A stretch of DNA of 64,000 bases, taken from assembly GCA_040755755.1 (NCBI GenBank), contig JBFLZW010000049.1, positions 67,007 to 131,006 on the forward strand, written 5' to 3'. This document shows, piece after piece, positions 54,939-63,574 of the stretch. Origin of the DNA: a bacterium. Lineage in GTDB: Bacteria; SZUA-182; DTGQ01. Both the position numbers and the translations under genes were made by a program. The notes below the pieces were generated by a model, which saw only the letters and a program-made list of their open reading frames with translations, was not told where the DNA came from and searched no databases. Each line of letters starts with the position of its first letter. The first letter of the stretch is position 1.

Positions 54939-55808
54939 TCAAAACTCCGGGGTATATTCGGCGGAATTCGAATCCAGGTCCTGGAGAAATCCATTCTCAA
55001 AGCCAAGGTCGAGGAAGTATTCTTCAACCTCCCGGTATTCCTCCGGGGTAAGCCGCCGGTTGAGTTCAGGCACTTCGCTGGCCCGATGGACCGGGTAATA
55101 CTGGGACATCAGGGAGATATACCTGTGGGTCCCCAGATTGTCCGCAATCCAGGCGAGGACTTTTTTGCTGTTTTCTACCTGGCCGGGCAGAATCAGGTGA
55201 CGGATAATCACTCCCCGCTGCATGATCCCCTCCTGGTCGAAGACCGGATCACCAACAATTTTCTGCATGGCCGCTATGGCCCGGCAAGCGTGGTGAAAGT
55301 AGTCAGGAAGCCGGGAGAACCTGACCGCCAGATCGTTGTCAGCATATTTAAGGTCCGGGAGAAACACATCCACCAGGCCGGACAACTCCTCAATGACCGA
55401 CTCTTTCTCGTAGCCATTGCTGTTCCAGACAATGGGAAGGTTAATTTCCTGCTTAAGCCGGGGTAGAATCCTCAGCAGGCGGCCTGAGTAGTGGGTGGGC
55501 GAGACCAGGTTAAGGTTATGGACCTTCGATTCTTCGACAAATTGCCTGCACAGTCCGATAAACTCCTCATCAGAGTAGATTCCGCCAGGGGGATTCAGTT
55601 GAGAAATCCGGTAGTTCTGGCAAAAGAGGCAGGCGGCATTGCAATGGGAAAAGAAAACGGTCCCGGAGCCCCGCTGGCCGCTGATGCAGGGCTCTTCCCA
55701 GAAATGGGCCATAATCCGGGTAACTTTCAATTCTGCCGGAGCCTTGCAGATCCCAAGCCGGGACACCCGGTCCACCCGGCATTCAAATGGGCAGCAATCA
55801 CATTTCAT
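54939..55808 (-). CDS. PflX-like radical SAM protein
   Basis: The 289-residue protein resembles the PflA/PflX (COG1313) group. An N-terminal cysteine motif (CDCCPFEC ... LGIC) precedes the radical SAM motif CNAACLFC near residue 56, followed by SPTHYSG and YISLMSQYYP. The target is unknown. It starts 8 bp after the stop of the AlbA_2/ATPase gene, so it is probably the last gene of a six-gene unit. Confidence 0.85.
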   Translation of the reverse strand: MKCDCCPFECRVDRVSRLGICKAPAELKVTRIMAHFWEEPCISGQRGSGTVFFSHCNAACLFCQNYRISQLNPPGGIYSDEEFIGLCRQFVEESKVHNLNLVSPTHYSGRLLRILPRLKQEINLPIVWNSNGYEKESVIEELSGLVDVFLPDLKYADNDLAVRFSRLPDYFHHACRAIAAMQKIVGDPVFDQEGIMQRGVIIRHLILPGQVENSKKVLAWIADNLGTHRYISLMSQYYPVHRASEVPELNRRLTPEEYREVEEYFLDLGFENGFLQDLDSNSAEYTPEF

Positions 55809-55816
55809 GATACTTC

Positions 55817-57334
55817 CTAATTATTCTCTTTCCCCAGACCCTTGGTGGTAATAACATATTTTTGCTTCGGGCTCCTGGGTTTATCCGGCATAGTCATGGT
55901 AATGAGACTCTCCTTCATGAGTGGATAAAGATAATTGGCCAGGAAAGTCTCCCGATGTTTTAAATTCAAAAAGGACATCATTTCTTTAATGGTTCTCTCC
56001 TCTCTGCAAAAATCCAGGAGCTTCAGCTTGTCCGGTACTTGTCCGGTACTTGTCCGGTACTTGTCCGGTACTTGTCCGGTACTTGTCCGGTACTTGTCCG
56101 GTACTTGTCTGAATTCGGCATGGCCGAGCTTCAAATCCACACCTTCTGTTCCAGATTTCTTTCTGAATTGAACTTGAAAAGCATAGCCAACCTCTCGGAG
56201 TACAAGCTCAATTTCCGGATAGTTCAAAAGCTCGCCTTGCATCTTTTGAATACCTGTCCCCCATGCCTCGATCACTTTTATATCCTTGAAAATGGGGGCT
56301 AAGATACGATTTCTAATCTCCGATCGGCCCGTGCCCAGTTTTTCAATCGGCATGGTTTCCGGTAGCGGACCGGGGCTGGTGATCTCCAGCATATCATCAA
56401 AAATAGCTATTTTGATGTCACTGCCGAGAATGGCATAATCTCTGTGAATTATGGCGTTACCAATAGCTTCACGGATGGCTTCGAGAGGGTACTCCCATCG
56501 ATCCTCCCGATAGACTTCACCAATACGAGAGAAAAGTGCGATATTCTTTTTAATAAAGGCCAGGCAAGGTTCCACTGCTGCATAAATAGGACCATCAATA
56601 CTCATCTGGTCCAAAAATACTCTTGTATCTGTCCCTTTAAAGCGGGCACATTCAATTTTTGCATAAGGGAAAAGGCGCTTGCGAACAGGGGAATCCGATA
56701 GCAGAACAGCCGCATGTGTTGGGTAAAGTTGGTCCCTTTCACAGCAAAGGAGTCCCAGGTTTTTAAGCTGCTCATTATTATCCAGGGGCCTGCCAGTTGC
56801 CTTTTGGTAGTCTATTCTAAAACTATCGAGATTAATCTGCGGGTAAGAAAGGTCATAGACCGGTATTGCATCGAAAGAGATTTTCCGCCGCTGCCGTTCC
56901 AGCTCTTCCAGTATCTCCTGAGACGCTTGTCTATTTGTGGAGCCAATACGGACATAGGTTCCCTGATGTTTACCCTTTGCTTTAAGATAGTATGGCTTAT
57001 GCGAGCCAGGGAAGATTTCTACTACCAGCAGATTTTTCCCCTCTGCTGCCTGAATGTAGATCTCCGGAATTATGGTTGGGGCGCATTGGCTGAAAATATG
57101 GTTCGAAATACGCTCTTCCAGGGGAAAAAGCTCATCGTCCGGAATGCCGATGATCTGTCTGGGATCACTGCGCACGCCAAAAACAATTTTTCCACCTGCA
57201 CCATTGGCGAAAGCTATTGCGGTTTTAGCCACGTGATTACCCTGGGGGAACCCCTCTTTAAATTCCAGACGCCGGGATTCCGGTAATTCCCAAAATGGTG
57301 GAGATGAATCTTGAGGGGAATGCATATCCTTCAT
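55817..57334 (-). CDS. AlbA_2/HATPase regulator with an 11-bp tandem repeat
   Basis: The 505-residue protein has an N-terminal AlbA_2 (Schlafen-like) domain (residues about 15-135, RRLEFKEGF and IAFANGAGG) and a HATPase-like domain with EAIGNAIIHRDY near residue 290. Then comes a tandem peptide (YRTSTGQVPDK, near residues 410-437), and a C-terminal winged-helix-like segment. The start is ATG 57334, overlapping the upstream stop by one base; a GTG at 57337 is possible. Such proteins are usually annotated as transcriptional regulators. A change in repeat number would shift the frame into the last 70 residues. Confidence 0.85.
   Translation of the reverse strand: MKDMHSPQDSSPPFWELPESRRLEFKEGFPQGNHVAKTAIAFANGAGGKIVFGVRSDPRQIIGIPDDELFPLEERISNHIFSQCAPTIIPEIYIQAAEGKNLLVVEIFPGSHKPYYLKAKGKHQGTYVRIGSTNRQASQEILEELERQRRKISFDAIPVYDLSYPQINLDSFRIDYQKATGRPLDNNEQLKNLGLLCCERDQLYPTHAAVLLSDSPVRKRLFPYAKIECARFKGTDTRVFLDQMSIDGPIYAAVEPCLAFIKKNIALFSRIGEVYREDRWEYPLEAIREAIGNAIIHRDYAILGSDIKIAIFDDMLEITSPGPLPETMPIEKLGTGRSEIRNRILAPIFKDIKVIEAWGTGIQKMQGELLNYPEIELVLREVGYAFQVQFRKKSGTEGVDLKLGHAEFRQVPDKYRTSTGQVPDKYRTSTGQVPDKLKLLDFCREERTIKEMMSFLNLKHRETFLANYLYPLMKESLITMTMPDKPRSPKQKYVITTKGLGKENN
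56027..56103 (-). repeat. Seven perfect 11-bp tandem repeats inside a coding sequence
   Basis: The unit CTTGTCCGGTA repeats seven times without mismatch, followed by six bases of an eighth. Three units equal 33 bp, or 11 codons, so the encoded peptide repeats every 11 residues. Because 11 is not a multiple of three, each gain or loss of one unit changes the downstream frame. Confidence 0.95.
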
Positions 57335-58524
57335 CACTCAGCAACCTTTTGTAAAACAAAAAATTTCAGGTACCTGCCCTCCGGAAAGCTCAGGTTATAG
57401 GGGTGGTCGTGCGGCTGCACGGTAGCGGCCAGCACCTTCACTATGCACCGGGCATTGACCGCGGACTGGTGAAGAATCTTGATAAAGGTTTCCTCATCGA
57501 TGTGGGTGGTGCAGGATGAGCTTACCAGGATGCCCTGGGGGGGCAGCTTTTCCAGGGCTTTGGAATTGATGGTGGTATAGGCCCTGATGGCGTTTTTGAC
57601 CTGCTCCTTGTTCTTGGCGAAGGAGGGCGGGTCCAGGATGATCAGGTCATATTCATCAGAAGGCATGCCCTTCAGGAACTCGAACACATCGTGCTCGATA
57701 AACTGATGTTTTCTGGTATTGACCCGGTTAGCCTCAAAGTTCTTTCTGGCATATTCTATGGCTTTTCCGGAGATATCCACGCTGGTCACTCCTCTGGCCC
57801 CGGCCAGGGCTGCATAGACTGAAAAGCCTCCGGTATAGGCAAAGCAGTTGAGAACCTGCCTCCGCCGGCAGAATCTGGTCACAAGACTCCGGTTTTCCCG
57901 CTGGTCGAGGAAAAAGCCGGTCTTCTGGCCCTCCACGAAATTGACCCAGAATGCGATACCGTTTTCCCGAATGAGCACCTCCCTGAGGTCCTCCCCATAC
58001 AGGAGCTGTTTGGGCTGGGTTTTCAGCCCCTCCTTCCGGCGAACGCCGACATCGCTTCTTTCGTAGATGGTCCTGGGCTGAAAAACCTCCCTGAGTGCCT
58101 CCACGATCGCGTCCCGCAGCCTGTCCATACCCACGGTATGGAGCTGGACCACCAGCACATCCGCGTACTTATCGACAATCAGGCCGGGCAGAAGGTCGCT
58201 TTCGCCAAAAACGACCCGGTAGGAATCGGTGTCCGGGGGGAGAAACTCCTCCTTGGCGTTTCGCAGCGTCTGGATTCTGCGCTGAAAAAAAGCGCGGTTG
58301 ATCTCTTCATCCTGAAAGCTTAAGACTCTGACCCTGATTTCCGAGTTTTTATTGTAATAGCCTGTTGCCAGAAAGCGGTTCTGCTGGTCATAAATCCCGC
58401 ACACCGCTCCGTTGACCAGACCTTCGGATACTTTCACAATGCCCCGGGAGAATATCCAGGGATGTCCGGCCTGGAGGTTTTTCACCCGTTCGTTTTTAAT
58501 AATAACCGGCAACTTAGGAGACAT
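57334..58524 (-). CDS. RlmI-like 23S rRNA cytosine methyltransferase
   Basis: The 396-residue enzyme has an N-terminal PUA domain (GHPWIFSRGI), a SAM-binding region (NCFAYTGGFSVYAALAGA), the catalytic LDPPSFAKN motif near residue 300 and SSCTTHI carrying the nucleophilic Cys. RlmI makes m5C1962 in E. coli. It starts 5 bp after the Memo-AMMECR1 stop and ends overlapping the next gene. Confidence 0.85.
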   Translation of the reverse strand: MSPKLPVIIKNERVKNLQAGHPWIFSRGIVKVSEGLVNGAVCGIYDQQNRFLATGYYNKNSEIRVRVLSFQDEEINRAFFQRRIQTLRNAKEEFLPPDTDSYRVVFGESDLLPGLIVDKYADVLVVQLHTVGMDRLRDAIVEALREVFQPRTIYERSDVGVRRKEGLKTQPKQLLYGEDLREVLIRENGIAFWVNFVEGQKTGFFLDQRENRSLVTRFCRRRQVLNCFAYTGGFSVYAALAGARGVTSVDISGKAIEYARKNFEANRVNTRKHQFIEHDVFEFLKGMPSDEYDLIILDPPSFAKNKEQVKNAIRAYTTINSKALEKLPPQGILVSSSCTTHIDEETFIKILHQSAVNARCIVKVLAATVQPHDHPYNLSFPEGRYLKFFVLQKVAE

Positions 58525-58529
58525 GCATC

Positions 58530-60044
58530 TTACTCGGACTCGGAAAAAACAATGGCCTGATAGATCTCCACTCTGGTTTTCGGGTTTTTCCAGGCATCGT
58601 CGGGCAGACCGGCCTTCTGACAGAGACTCTGGAGGAAGCTTTCCTTATCCGGCAACTGCTCCCAGACCTGGGGGAGGTAGGTTGCCCGGTGCCATCCCTG
58701 GCTCAGTATCACACCATCCACCCCCGGCCGCAATTGCCGCTTCAGGTCCTCGGCGTCAGAGAACTTGATTTGCCTGGGCAGAGTGAGGATGCTGATTTCT
58801 ATCTCGATCTGATCCAGCTCACTCATGCTCAGCGGGGAAAATCTGGGATCGCGGAAGGCTGCATTGAAGGCATTTTCCTTCACGCAATCGCACAGCCGCT
58901 GTTCAGGAGAAATCGTGCCGATACAGCCGCGCAATTGTCCCTTCTTGTGGAGGGTGACAAAGCAGCCCCGCTTCTCCTGAAGATAGGGCGAAGGGTCCTC
59001 CGGAGAAGTCGACTTCTCCTTGCTCAGGGTATTCCTGATCACGCGGCGGGCAAGATCGAGCAGTGCCTTGCGGTCCGCCCCGGAAACGGCCTCCTGATGA
59101 TGCCCTGTGTGCTCAGTGCCGAGAGTGTTCTTGCTTTGAGTTTCCCTGCCCTTCGCCGTTCCTCCCTCTCCTCCCCTGACAAAGGCGATGCTGGCATATC
59201 CCACTACCTGATCGGGAGGACCGGCCGTGTCTCCCGAATTCCGGTAGTCGATCAGTTTTCCCTGCCACCCCTTCTGGCGGGCAATCTCCATGAGGACCAG
59301 GACAGGGATTTTTCCGCAGGCCTCGCTTTCAGCCGTCTGGTCAAAATCCATGGCTGTAATGGCCCTGATGCAGCTTTCGTCAAGAAGCCTGGCCTTGTTA
59401 TACGGATAATAATGCGAGAGATCGGAACTGGCCACGATCAGCGTGTCTTCACCGATATAGGGCAAGAGGACCTTGGCTATACGGCTGGGGTCAACCTGGC
59501 CGATAGTGATGGGAACCAGCTCGAAATTTTTCAGCCTCTCCTGGAGAAAAGGCAGTTGCACTTCAAGGGAGTGCTCCTTGTGATCCATCTCCGGCAGGGG
59601 GGAAAAAAGCTCATGCTGGCGCAGGGTGGCGGCTATGGGAGACAGGGGAATGTCCCCCAGGGGGGTGCGGTATGCATCGACATCCATGATTGATGCCCTG
59701 GCCGCGACTGACCGGTGGCTGGGTGCCAGGACGAAAACGGTTTTGGTGGCAGGGTCGATCTGCCGGTAGCCGGTGGCTGCCACTGGTCCTGAGTAGATAT
59801 ATCCGGCATGCGGAGCGATCAGCCCCATAATCCTGCCGGATACCGGGCTGCCTTTGCCCTCTTTCAGAAATTGCCGCACCACTCCGGCCAGCTTGATTTC
59901 TTCGGCAGGGTAGAACTGCCCCGCCACCGCCGGAAATCTTACCCGCTTTTTCTCCTTTTGGCCCGGCTCGTCCTTGGCCCAGCCGAAAGAACCCGGAAAC
60001 ATGACCAGAAGAAAAATCAAGAACAGATAAGCAATATTTTTCAT
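58530..60044 (-). CDS. Secreted Memo-AMMECR1 fusion (AmmeMemoRadiSam proteins B and A)
   Basis: The 504-residue protein has a cleavable signal peptide (residues 1-23, ending GWA). The Memo domain (about 36-300) has APHAGYIYSG and LAPSHRS, whose histidines match metal ligands of human Memo1, and SEACGKIP, matching its third (Cys) ligand, plus SSDLSHYYPY. The AMMECR1 domain (about 325-504) has LRGCIGTI, invariant in that family. Memo1 and AMMECR1 are separate proteins in eukaryotes; bacterial A and B proteins are normally encoded next to a radical SAM enzyme, as here. The signal peptide makes this a periplasmic form. A strong AAAGGAGG site precedes the ATG. The biochemical role is unknown. Confidence 0.9.
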   Translation of the reverse strand: MKNIAYLFLIFLLVMFPGSFGWAKDEPGQKEKKRVRFPAVAGQFYPAEEIKLAGVVRQFLKEGKGSPVSGRIMGLIAPHAGYIYSGPVAATGYRQIDPATKTVFVLAPSHRSVAARASIMDVDAYRTPLGDIPLSPIAATLRQHELFSPLPEMDHKEHSLEVQLPFLQERLKNFELVPITIGQVDPSRIAKVLLPYIGEDTLIVASSDLSHYYPYNKARLLDESCIRAITAMDFDQTAESEACGKIPVLVLMEIARQKGWQGKLIDYRNSGDTAGPPDQVVGYASIAFVRGGEGGTAKGRETQSKNTLGTEHTGHHQEAVSGADRKALLDLARRVIRNTLSKEKSTSPEDPSPYLQEKRGCFVTLHKKGQLRGCIGTISPEQRLCDCVKENAFNAAFRDPRFSPLSMSELDQIEIEISILTLPRQIKFSDAEDLKRQLRPGVDGVILSQGWHRATYLPQVWEQLPDKESFLQSLCQKAGLPDDAWKNPKTRVEIYQAIVFSESE

Positions 60045-60114
60045 AACCCTACCTCCTTTGTGGTAAAAAGAAGTCGCTCTTATGGGAAAGACGACACGGC
60101 GGTGTTGTATTTTT

Positions 60115-60183
60115 CCCGCAGAGACGCTGAGACGCAGAGGATATCATTTTCGGTCATTCTCTGCGCCCCTGCGTCTCTGCGGG
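60115..60183. repeat. GCAGAGACGC inverted repeat between system genes
   Basis: Outer 13-bp arms (60115-60127 and 60171-60183, CCCGCAGAGACGC) and inner 6-bp arms (60134-60139 and 60159-60164) form a stem between the radical SAM stop and the Memo-AMMECR1 start. It resembles a widespread GC-rich extragenic repeat, and may also attenuate or stabilise the transcript. Confidence 0.65.
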
Positions 60184-60248
60184 AGATCATTCTTCTATCC
60201 TTAAATACGTACCATCGGATGTGTGCCATTGCCCACTCCCCATCCCCC

Positions 60249-61400
60249 TCACTCCCACCGTCCGCTCACTGGTTGCTTGCAGAACCGGCACTTGCCTTTC
60301 TCCAGGTTGAGGGATGCAAGGGTATATCCCTGGCGTTTGACCACCGTCTTCCTGCACCCTGGGCATATGACTTCCTCCCCCATTCCCGGCACATTGCCGA
60401 TATATACATGGTGCAGCCCTTCCCTGATCCCGGCTTCCCTGGCCTTTTGGAGTATCTCCACGGGCGTGGGCGGCAGCTTGGCAAGCTTGTATTTGGGCGT
60501 GAACCGGGAAAAATGCAGGGGGCATTCCGGTCCGAGGTTTCGGGCGATCCATCCGCACATCCTTTTGATCATTTCCAGATCATCGGTGTAGGTGGGGATT
60601 ACCAGGTTGATGATTTCCAGCCAGATACCCCGGCGGTGGAGGGTTTTTAAGGTATTGAGCACCGGCTCAAGATGCCCGCCGTTCAGCTTGCGGTAGATGT
60701 CATCGGAGAAGCTTTTCAGATTGATGCTTCCCGCATCAATGACCGTGCACAGACGATCCAGGGCGGGAGGCGATATATAACCGTTGCTGACGTAGATATT
60801 CTTAAGCCCCGCAGGCCGCGCCCTGGCCGAGATGTCAACCATATACTCATAGAACGTGGTTGCTTCCGAGTAGGTGTAAGCGAGGCTTTTGCAGTTGTAT
60901 TGCAGGGCCATCCTGACTGCCTGGTCCGGAGGAAGATCGAGATTGCGGGTCTTATCCGGTGTGGTCTGGGAAATCTCCCAGTTCTGGCAATTCAGGCAAT
61001 GGAAATTACACCCGGCCACAGCCAGGGAAAAGGCGAGGGATCCCGGATAAAAGTGCAGGAGCGGCTTTTTTTCCACCGGGTCCACGTTGACGGTGCAGGG
61101 ATTGCCATAGGAGATGGAATAGAGCTTTCCGGACAGATTCACCCTGGTTTCGCACCTTCCCCGGCGGTCAGGTTTGATGAGACAGGTATTGGGACAGGTT
61201 TGGCACCTGACCTTTCCGCCGGTGAGTTTCTCGTAAAAATAGGCTTCCCGAAGGTGGGGGTCTTTGGGATCGAAGCCGGAGTCAGCCAGAGCCAGCCTTT
61301 CTAAGGCACTCCCCGGATAACCCCAGTGAGATAACCAAAACCATGCTCCGCAGGCCGCACACAGGCTGCCCTTGAGAAATTCCCGCCGGGTTCGATTCAT
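60249..61400 (-). CDS. AmmeMemoRadiSam radical SAM enzyme with a Tat-type leader
   Basis: The 383-residue protein starts with RTRREFLKG followed by a hydrophobic stretch (residues about 12-32), the twin-arginine export pattern. An N-terminal cysteine set (CQTCPNTC ... RC) precedes the radical SAM motif CNFHCLNC near residue 134 and YTYSEATTFYEYMVD. The C-terminus adds a zinc-ribbon-like tail (CPGC ... CRFC). The family is defined by genomic association with Memo and AMMECR1. Here the partner fusion lies 204 bp downstream. Export of a radical SAM enzyme would be unusual, since the usual electron and SAM supply is cytoplasmic. The leader may instead act as a membrane anchor. The ATG overlaps the upstream gene's stop. 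Confidence 0.85.
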   Translation of the reverse strand: MNRTRREFLKGSLCAACGAWFWLSHWGYPGSALERLALADSGFDPKDPHLREAYFYEKLTGGKVRCQTCPNTCLIKPDRRGRCETRVNLSGKLYSISYGNPCTVNVDPVEKKPLLHFYPGSLAFSLAVAGCNFHCLNCQNWEISQTTPDKTRNLDLPPDQAVRMALQYNCKSLAYTYSEATTFYEYMVDISARARPAGLKNIYVSNGYISPPALDRLCTVIDAGSINLKSFSDDIYRKLNGGHLEPVLNTLKTLHRRGIWLEIINLVIPTYTDDLEMIKRMCGWIARNLGPECPLHFSRFTPKYKLAKLPPTPVEILQKAREAGIREGLHHVYIGNVPGMGEEVICPGCRKTVVKRQGYTLASLNLEKGKCRFCKQPVSGRWE

Positions 61401-63574
61401 CGTGATTTCCTCATCTTCACCAAGGCTGCCAGGCTGGCCGATTTAACCAGCGCTGCTGAAAGAAGTACACCCAGAATACCGAATCCGGGAAGTAAAAACA
61501 AGCTGGTCACCAGAGTCCCGCAGGATGCACCGGCCAGGTCCGCCAGGTAGAGCTTTCCGGTGATCCGGGGCACCTTTCCGATGAGCTGATGCGAAACAGC
61601 CACAAATTGCCAGCCGACAGCAAGGGCAGAGCCAAAGATGAGCACGGGAATGATACCGCACTGAACCACGGACAGGAGAACATCGGCCTGCAGGCTCCTG
61701 CCGAAAACAGCAAGCCCGCAGATGAGACTGACCAGGAGAATAAGAATGCTGTCCTGGACGAGCGTCTGTCCCACCGGATCCTTCCTCCACTTGCGTGCAG
61801 CCAGGGCACCTGCACCTAATCCTATCATAAAAAGCGTTATAAATAAAGAGATCCACAGATAAACATAACCGAAAATGGTCTGAAAGAGAAAAAGCAGGGA
61901 TAATTCCAGAGAAATCCCCGTATAACCGGAAGAGAAAGTGACCAGGAGCAGTTTATCCCGCTGCCAGGCCACAAGAAGGCACAGGGCCAGCAAAACCGCG
62001 ATTGCCGGAATCAGCCAGCTCATCCTTTCCGTCCCTCCGGTTTTTTTCAGCCACAGGTTCAAAAGATGCCGGAAAGCACGGGGTGAAAGATCGGTGTTGG
62101 GCTGGCTGTCCCCGCCGGTGACCAGACCCTTGAGCCGGTCCATCCGAAACGGGTCGGTCATCTCCGGCAGTTGATAGTCAACCAGCCAGCGGGTGCGGAT
62201 GTTTCGCTCAGCCAGCCTTCCCCTGATATCCGGAGCACCGGAAGCACCGGAAGCACCAGGGCTGAGAGCAGGGGCAAGGGGGCAGGCAGAGGCAAGAAAA
62301 TAGTGGGTTTCACCGGGAAAAAGAAGGATGTGGGCAAATACCTGGTCAAGGGCGGCATAGACAGAGCGGTTCAGGGCCAGCCCTTCGGCTTCGAGGTAGT
62401 TATCGGCTCCGGTCAGGGTAAAGAACACGACTCCCCGTGGGGTGAGGATGCTTCTGGCCTCCTGAAAAAACTCGCGGGTATAGAAGCGGTTATACTGGAT
62501 ATTTTCCGGTCCCGGCAGGTCAAGAACCAGACAATCATAGCGGATTGCCGCCCGGCGGGCTTTCTTGATAAAGAGCCTCCCGTCACCCACATGGGTATGG
62601 ACGCGCGGGTTATCGAGGCTGCGGTGAATATGCCGGTCCATACGCAGGATGGCCGGATCGAGCTCCACATAGTCGATCCGGCCCGGATTGTGTTTCAGAA
62701 TCTCGGCGATCGTGCCGAATACCCCGCCGCCGATCAACAGCACCCTGGCACCTTCTCCAACCTGGGCCAGGGGAATATGGGCCAGGGCCTCGGTGCGGTA
62801 ATCATTGCTCGAAAAAAGCGGCAGGCCGTCCGAAAGGACATTCACCTGCTGACCGCTGCGGGTGATCGACAACTGGGCAAAGGGAGTATTCCTGTGAACA
62901 AGAATTTTCTGCCCCGGTACCTGCCAGGACAAGGTCGAGAAATTGAGCGGCAGGCTCACAGCTATGGCCAGAGCTGCCAGAGCCGGTACCAGCCACAGGC
63001 GGCGGGGAAAGCAAAAGAGCATGGTCACGCCAAGGTTCAGGAAACCGACAGCCATCAGCACTCCCCAGTGGGAGAAAAGATAGACGAACAGGAAGCTGAA
63101 CACAAGCCCGCCCAGAACCTCTCCCCCAAGGTCGGTAAGATAAGCCGCTGATGGAGGATCATTCGAAGACAAAAGACCGGCCGCCAGAGGGATCAGACTT
63201 CCGGCAACAAGACCATAGGGCGTGAGAATCAGACCGCTGCCGATCATGGCCGTGCCAGCACCCAGCAATTCCCCCCGAACCCACAGCAGCGGCAGGGCCC
63301 TGAAGCCGACCAGTTGGAGAAAGGGAATCACCGCCAGGAGCAGGTGGCCTGAAAAGAGCAGGCGATAGGGGTTTTTCCCCCTGGCCATCAGGGCCCCCAG
63401 AAAGGCACCGGAAGCAGAGGATAGAAGCCATAAGCCCAGAATAAGGCCAATCACCAGCTCATTTCCACCAAAGGTTGAGATACCCTCCCGGATGAGAACC
63501 AATTGGGTCACGACAGAGGAAAAGCCAACTACGGCCAGCGAGATACCGGCTTTGGGAATTTTCGGCAGCGACAT
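61397..63574 (-). CDS. Membrane-embedded spermidine synthase-like protein
   Basis: The 725-residue protein has about six membrane helices, then a soluble aminopropyltransferase-like domain (residues about 225-440), then about six more helices. The soluble part has LLIGGGVFGT, YVELDPAIL, VGDGRLF and LVLDLPGP, the fold's nucleotide-binding and catalytic Asp motifs. Such fusions are known in many bacteria, but their products are seldom determined. It is the first gene of the exported AmmeMemoRadiSam unit and overlaps the radical SAM gene by 4 bp. That coupling suggests related roles. Confidence 0.85.
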   Translation of the reverse strand: MSLPKIPKAGISLAVVGFSSVVTQLVLIREGISTFGGNELVIGLILGLWLLSSASGAFLGALMARGKNPYRLLFSGHLLLAVIPFLQLVGFRALPLLWVRGELLGAGTAMIGSGLILTPYGLVAGSLIPLAAGLLSSNDPPSAAYLTDLGGEVLGGLVFSFLFVYLFSHWGVLMAVGFLNLGVTMLFCFPRRLWLVPALAALAIAVSLPLNFSTLSWQVPGQKILVHRNTPFAQLSITRSGQQVNVLSDGLPLFSSNDYRTEALAHIPLAQVGEGARVLLIGGGVFGTIAEILKHNPGRIDYVELDPAILRMDRHIHRSLDNPRVHTHVGDGRLFIKKARRAAIRYDCLVLDLPGPENIQYNRFYTREFFQEARSILTPRGVVFFTLTGADNYLEAEGLALNRSVYAALDQVFAHILLFPGETHYFLASACPLAPALSPGASGASGAPDIRGRLAERNIRTRWLVDYQLPEMTDPFRMDRLKGLVTGGDSQPNTDLSPRAFRHLLNLWLKKTGGTERMSWLIPAIAVLLALCLLVAWQRDKLLLVTFSSGYTGISLELSLLFLFQTIFGYVYLWISLFITLFMIGLGAGALAARKWRKDPVGQTLVQDSILILLVSLICGLAVFGRSLQADVLLSVVQCGIIPVLIFGSALAVGWQFVAVSHQLIGKVPRITGKLYLADLAGASCGTLVTSLFLLPGFGILGVLLSAALVKSASLAALVKMRKSR

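Follow-up and report, generated by a model that had tools for sequence, protein, structure and literature searches.

Background

The cytoplasmic AmmeMemoRadiSam system consists of AMMECR1 (TIGR04335), Memo (TIGR04336) and a radical S-adenosylmethionine (SAM) enzyme (TIGR04337). The human counterparts of Memo and AMMECR1 have links to cancer as well as to developmental disease. Since the cytoplasm is where SAM and low-potential electrons are available, radical SAM enzymes in general are placed there, and their chemistry is not known from outside it. Phrase searches of the available literature library retrieved no paper on exported, secreted or periplasmic radical SAM enzymes; the gene contexts of Memo and AMMECR1 have reportedly been analyzed by Burroughs et al. 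(2019, J Biol Chem). Here, a form of the system is described that is encoded in a stretch of 64,000 nucleotides (contig JBFLZW010000049.1, positions 67,007 to 131,006, assembly GCA_040755755.1; the whole stretch is termed the window) from a bacterium of the lineage SZUA-182. Its Memo, AMMECR1 and radical SAM parts all score above the curated cut-offs. Unlike the cytoplasmic system, the window form is predicted to be exported, has Memo and AMMECR1 fused in one chain, and has an additional membrane partner with a major facilitator superfamily (MFS) fold.

The radical SAM enzyme, the Memo-AMMECR1 protein and the adenosine-binding head of the partner all appear to lie outside the cytoplasm. On the preferred reading, the locus encodes an extracytoplasmic AmmeMemoRadiSam module, in which the MFS-like partner supplies or handles SAM on the outside; a probability of about 0.5 is assigned to this reading.

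A Clade of Radical SAM Enzymes with Predicted Export

The radical SAM protein of the window matches TIGR04337 with 336.8 bits (NCBIfam cut-off 220). Its N-terminus has the classical twin-arginine pattern, after which a stretch of moderate hydrophobicity runs to LALA, and TatC is found in the same genome, so that both a leader for twin-arginine translocation (Tat) and the translocase gene are present. Relatives were taken from the surroundings of TIGR04337 matches in 60 related genomes and from 80 named loci found by a radical SAM alignment search. Since that scan used the radical SAM alignment, the list of organisms among the named loci is biased toward relatives of the query, and the decisive leader statistics come from the unselected relatives. 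Many loci lie on contigs of metagenome-assembled genomes (MAGs) that are cut at their ends.

By a simple hydropathy and motif rule, used in place of SignalP, the 99 members of the clade that contains the window enzyme were classed as carrying a Tat-type leader (68), a Sec-type leader or transmembrane (TM) anchor (19), a split arrangement (3) or no leader (9). With 87 of the 99 relatives in this clade carrying one, the leaders recur beyond chance. In the split cases, a small membrane open reading frame (ORF) directly upstream carries the EAxYY segment of the radical SAM enzyme; it abuts or overlaps the radical SAM ORF in another frame (L038, upstream of 6260; L040, upstream of 2812; L164, 6732-7028), for which a split gene, a programmed frameshift and a sequencing error are candidate readings.

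In a tree of 138 radical SAM cores from which the leader columns had been excluded, every leadered copy falls into one clade (Shimodaira-Hasegawa-like approximate likelihood ratio support 99), and the 39 other copies, all of them leaderless, fall outside. A more careful tree of 55 rows gave a clade support of 99/96, and the split is present in 100% of the bootstrap trees. A wrongly chosen start codon was rejected as the origin of the leader, because leaders would then not cluster in one clade of a tree built without them. The leaderless members are nested within the clade, which reads as loss of the leader.

The clade comprises bacteria of the Thermodesulfobacteriota, Bacteroidota, Ignavibacteriota, Planctomycetota, Verrucomicrobiota, Omnitrophota, Elusimicrobiota, Chloroflexota and Nitrospirota, KSB1 and WOR-3 MAGs, and archaeal MAGs of the Altiarchaeota, Aenigmatarchaeota and Woesearchaeota, for which binning errors in single MAGs are possible. 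The partner Memo protein has a Sec or lipoprotein leader in 43 of the 46 clade cases that could be scored, and all three parts bear export features at 25 loci. The order of the genes varies between lineages, with constant membership of the set. As judged from sequence comparison, an ancient and widespread exported subfamily with a dedicated membrane partner is well supported. Export signals on both soluble parts had been proposed in an earlier note on this DNA, and they recur in the relatives.

The window genome contains a second TIGR04337 copy on contig C7, a cytoplasmic paralogue with neither Memo nor AMMECR1 adjoining. It stands next to genes for an archease and the RNA ligase RtcB (L058:5155-8059), and an archease-like gene is found near 5 of the 39 cytoplasmic copies.

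Metal-Binding Residues of the Radical SAM Enzyme and the Memo-AMMECR1 Fusion

The CxxxCxxC motif is kept in 99/99 members of the exported clade, residues common to the cytoplasmic copies are likewise retained, and an N-terminal and a C-terminal cysteine quartet of the enzyme are invariant in the alignment. The fusion protein scores 240.7 bits with TIGR04336 (cut-off 26) and 218.3 bits with TIGR04335 (cut-off 99). MEMO1 binds iron or copper, with H49, H81 and C244 as iron ligands (PMC11081632). The corresponding His/His/Cys ligands are invariant in 30/30 secreted fusions, and so is the LRGC-G core of the AMMECR1 domain. The sole AMMECR1 of the window genome is the leadered fusion, and both of its Memo genes have signal-like leaders. 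The second of these (L004:7244-8353, contig C66) lacks an AMMECR1 domain and has altered active-site motifs (PHHGY and SSDLSER).

The metal ligands of Memo allow for a different reading, in which the exported radical SAM protein has given up radical chemistry and handles metal together with iron-binding Memo, acting as a zinc or iron-sulfur scaffold. Metal binding by MEMO1, the invariance of the iron ligands and the Sec leaders of some members would fit such a role. It is nevertheless highly unlikely, since all cysteines of the radical SAM enzyme and the residues shared with its cytoplasmic counterparts have been preserved, and since a partner that binds the SAM nucleoside would make little sense beside a scaffold.

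The Membrane Partner

The membrane protein contains a domain that matches PF01564 with 70.2 bits (cut-off 22.9). Its AlphaFold model (predicted local distance difference test score, pLDDT, 89.2; predicted template modelling score 0.90) consists of seven helices, the spermidine-synthase-fold domain and the remaining helices in a 7 + 7 arrangement. The head domain was matched by Foldseek to the aminopropyltransferase of T. thermophilus (E 7e-12). According to VIA-align comparison of the predicted model, the membrane part matches MFS transporters, namely SV2A (Z 28.6) and NarK (Z 27.1 over 349 residues, 3.5 Å), and on this model it is of the MFS fold. The topology was derived from the positive-inside rule, by which the head is placed outside in 53/53 homologues for each membrane half independently; the mean numbers of Lys plus Arg inside and outside are 10.6/2.7 and 8.9/1.2 for the two halves. 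A cytoplasmic head is consequently disfavoured.

The window protein retains E304 and D331, the residues for the ribose and the adenine, respectively, and has V and G at two positions of aminopropyl transfer. Among the 53 relatives, the ribose Glu is kept in 51 and the adenine Asp in all, while none has retained the acid of GGG(D/E)G by which decarboxylated SAM is bound (it is Val in the window), and 14 have the first Asp of DxxDP (the window reads DLPGP). Since the nucleoside-binding acids are kept and the aminopropyl residues are lost, the head likely binds a SAM-type nucleoside outside the cytoplasm and would not transfer aminopropyl groups. The partner had been termed aminopropyltransferase-like in the earlier note, and a true aminopropyltransferase, making or using a SAM-derived aminopropyl group, would agree with the fold of the domain; given the family-wide loss of the transfer residues, the MFS fold, the head predicted outside and a separate, intact, cytosolic SpeE (GGGDG, DSTDP) in the window genome, this role is hardly credible, and the label was given up.

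A methyltransferase would be a less remote alternative. In fungal NHMT, a spermidine-synthase-fold domain is attached to a 7-TM part, Ile replaces the Asp/Glu, and secreted lytic polysaccharide monooxygenases are methylated from the endoplasmic reticulum (PMC10349129). By this precedent, the membrane protein of the window could be an extracytoplasmic SAM-dependent methyltransferase that modifies a secreted protein or lipid, with the SAM pool outside being supplied in some other way and the radical SAM enzyme drawing on it as a second user; the relatives likewise lack an acid at the position of the Ile (53/53). However, the seven TM helices of NHMT all precede the domain, the Gly-rich loop is degenerate in many membrane partners (GAPIPE in L094), and no recurrent gene for a methyl acceptor is found near the set in the relatives' loci, which makes this alternative rather unlikely.

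In Bacteroidota, the membrane partners (L100, which is from the cultured Mangrovibacterium marinum DSM 28823, L118, L119 and others) have an extra three-helix N-terminal part with invariant His residues (H77, H91), which is perhaps heme-binding; a heme b module was considered here, and the model of the three helices, at pLDDT 82, had no PDB match at E <= 0.001.

Co-occurrence of Partner and Exported Clade

When the 60 genomes were searched with a profile of nine copies of the partner, the full-length protein was found in 19/19 genomes with the exported clade and in 0/41 without it. The copies in the profile came from nine of the 19 genomes; the probability of this distribution for the remaining ten is 1/C(51,10) = 8e-11. 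In those ten genomes the partner and the radical SAM enzyme are encoded at separate places, and the link to the clade is therefore not based on neighbourhood alone. Among unselected relatives, a leader is accompanied by a nearby membrane partner at 8/15 loci versus 1/44 (Fisher 2e-5), and an MFS-fold partner lies within 3.5 kb at 1/39 cytoplasmic loci. The earlier association of the membrane protein with the exported form is borne out by these numbers, and the link of leader and partner survives a survey of relatives for leaderless and partnerless versions of the genes.

The co-occurrence bears on a further alternative. Folded, cofactor-loaded proteins are exported by Tat, and the radical SAM enzyme might leave the cytoplasm preloaded with both cluster and SAM, the latter acting as recycled cofactor or in a single turnover, so that the membrane protein would be free for another task such as the clearing of nucleosides. 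The Tat-type leaders in 68 of the 87 leadered members are in line with this view, which leaves unexplained both the Sec-leadered members and the fact that an adenosine-binding MFS-like protein strictly accompanies the enzyme, and which is considered quite unlikely.

Electron Conduits and Other Neighbours

Membrane redox proteins (DsbD_2, FMN_bind, Fer4_5) are encoded near 12/99 exported versus 0/39 cytoplasmic loci (p 0.02), and in L056 Fer4_5 is fused to the membrane partner itself. DsbD_2 genes are situated, for instance, between the radical SAM and the membrane-partner genes (L152, L154, L161), FMN_bind and Fer4_5 proteins stand beside the exported genes in L040, L164 and L171, and in L163 (1744-3435) and L168 (5012-6757) a gene for all three domains in a single membrane protein immediately precedes a radical SAM gene with a TM anchor. 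The single FMN_bind match of the window genome is in an apparent Rnf operon, as judged by eye from the neighbouring frames.

DUF362 was considered and dismissed as a fixed partner, being present at only 5/99 clade loci. Of these DUF362 proteins (L037, L042, L048, L159, L165), the ones in L037, L042, L048 and L165 have leader-like N-termini and are encoded less than 500 bp from the radical SAM gene.

Proposed Pathway

Returning to the extracytoplasmic module with a SAM-handling partner, the following scenario can be drawn. In most lineages the radical SAM protein would be exported by Tat in folded form and with its cluster. The MFS-like protein would carry SAM across the membrane or remove the nucleoside products of SAM; provision of SAM on the outside is suggested because the partner is confined to the exported form, which is also the one form that would be short of SAM. 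The head might hold SAM for the radical enzyme or use it for methyl transfer. Reducing power could be delivered by membrane carriers, either Rnf or, in some relatives, the FMN_bind/Fer4_5 and DsbD_2 proteins encoded by adjoining genes, and the iron-binding Memo-AMMECR1 protein would act on the same envelope substrate as the radical enzyme. The more far-reaching version, namely a complete extracytoplasmic radical SAM pathway with a dedicated MFS-type SAM carrier and, in some lineages, dedicated electron conduits, belonging to one ancient subfamily of many bacterial phyla and archaea, is put forward tentatively, its chances being judged somewhat short of even.

Several points weigh against the module as drawn. 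Export, SAM supply and chemistry are all inferred. Nine clade members are leaderless, and some of these stand beside an exported Memo (L138, L156, L162, L171), so that the two parts may at times be in different compartments. A leader of the Sec type, as found in some members, would export the enzyme in unfolded form and without its cluster. Not every MFS-like protein is a transporter. DsbD_2 was not found in the window genome, and a dedicated electron conduit was not seen at the window locus, where the contig ends together with the window 426 bp upstream of the set and nothing farther upstream can be read.

Should the module be confirmed, a conserved exported subfamily with a transporter-like partner for the SAM nucleoside would break the rule that radical SAM enzymes are confined to the cytoplasm, would imply a SAM pool outside it, and would offer a handle on the chemistry of Memo and AMMECR1.

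Organization of the Locus

The coordinates are compiled in the table. All three genes are on the minus strand and would be transcribed in the order membrane protein, radical SAM enzyme, Memo-AMMECR1 fusion. The earlier description of a secreted fusion, a Tat-leadered radical SAM enzyme and a membrane spermidine-synthase-like protein, with two of the genes overlapping by 4 bp, agrees with the family scores and with the leaders as read directly; the order given there is the reverse of transcription, and the fusion gene is separated from the radical SAM gene by a gap of 204 bp. An AGGAGG-type ribosome site precedes the fusion gene. At 60114-60184 the gap contains a palindrome, formed by an inverted repeat of 29 nt with CGCAGAGACGCAG-type sequence.

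Past the fusion gene, after 5 bp, lies a gene for an RlmI-like rRNA methyltransferase (57334-58524), which is kept in the related genomes G001 and G003. Farther downstream a leaderless radical SAM protein similar to pyruvate formate-lyase activating enzyme is encoded (54939-55808); G001, G002 and G003 likewise have a similar gene on the downstream side of the fusion.

Table. Features of the exported AmmeMemoRadiSam locus (predicted) in window coordinates
Feature	Position	Strand	Remarks
MFS-fold membrane protein with spermidine-synthase-fold domain, 725 amino acids, 14 TM helices	61397..63574	-	First gene of the set
N-terminal membrane half, helices at amino acids 8-218	62921..63553	-	AlphaFold model, hydropathy
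Spermidine-synthase-fold domain, amino acids 219-515	62030..62920	-	Predicted outside the cytoplasm
C-terminal membrane half, amino acids 516-724	61403..62029	-	AlphaFold model, hydropathy
ATGA start-stop overlap (4 bp) of membrane protein gene and radical SAM gene	61397..61400	-	
AmmeMemoRadiSam radical SAM enzyme, 383 amino acids	60249..61400	-	TIGR04337 and trees; exported clade
Tat-type leader MNRTRREFLKG...LALA, amino acids 1-39	61284..61400	-	Sequence; conserved in clade; TatC in genome
CxxxCxxC [4Fe-4S]/SAM motif, C131-C135-C138	60987..61010	-	Invariant in alignment
Memo-AMMECR1 fusion, 504 amino acids, predicted secreted	58530..60044	-	TIGR04336 and TIGR04335; last gene
Sec-type signal peptide MKNIAYLFLIFLLVMFPGSFGWA, amino acids 1-23, cleavage before KD	59976..60044	-	Sequence
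Memo domain	59181..59939	-	H79, H110, C243 correspond to MEMO1 iron ligands H49, H81, C244
AMMECR1 domain with LRGCIG motif	58545..59066	-	L371, R372, G373, C374, G376 invariant

Comparison with Known Systems

Apart from the cytoplasmic system, single parts of the locus can be compared with characterized proteins. By sequence, the nearest solved structure to the radical SAM domain is that of pyruvate formate-lyase activating enzyme (3C8F; 62.8 bits), which is cytoplasmic and lacks the additional Cys quartets of the N- and C-terminal parts. Human MEMO1 (7KQ8) is related across the whole Memo domain and has the same His, His and Cys metal ligands; it is, however, intracellular and unfused to AMMECR1, whereas the window protein is a secreted fusion by prediction. 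For the membrane protein, the fused MFS/spermidine synthase proteins of NF037959 likewise join both kinds of module in a single chain, but the window protein reaches 30.5 bits against the cut-off of 40, and its type is confined to genomes that have the exported clade of radical SAM enzymes. With NHMT (AN4663; PMC10349129) it shares a membrane-anchored spermidine-synthase-fold domain that is non-acidic at the GxG(D/E)G position; NHMT is a eukaryotic protein with 7 TM helices and neither a radical SAM nor a Memo partner, while the domain of the window protein is set between the 7 + 7 TM helices of an MFS fold.

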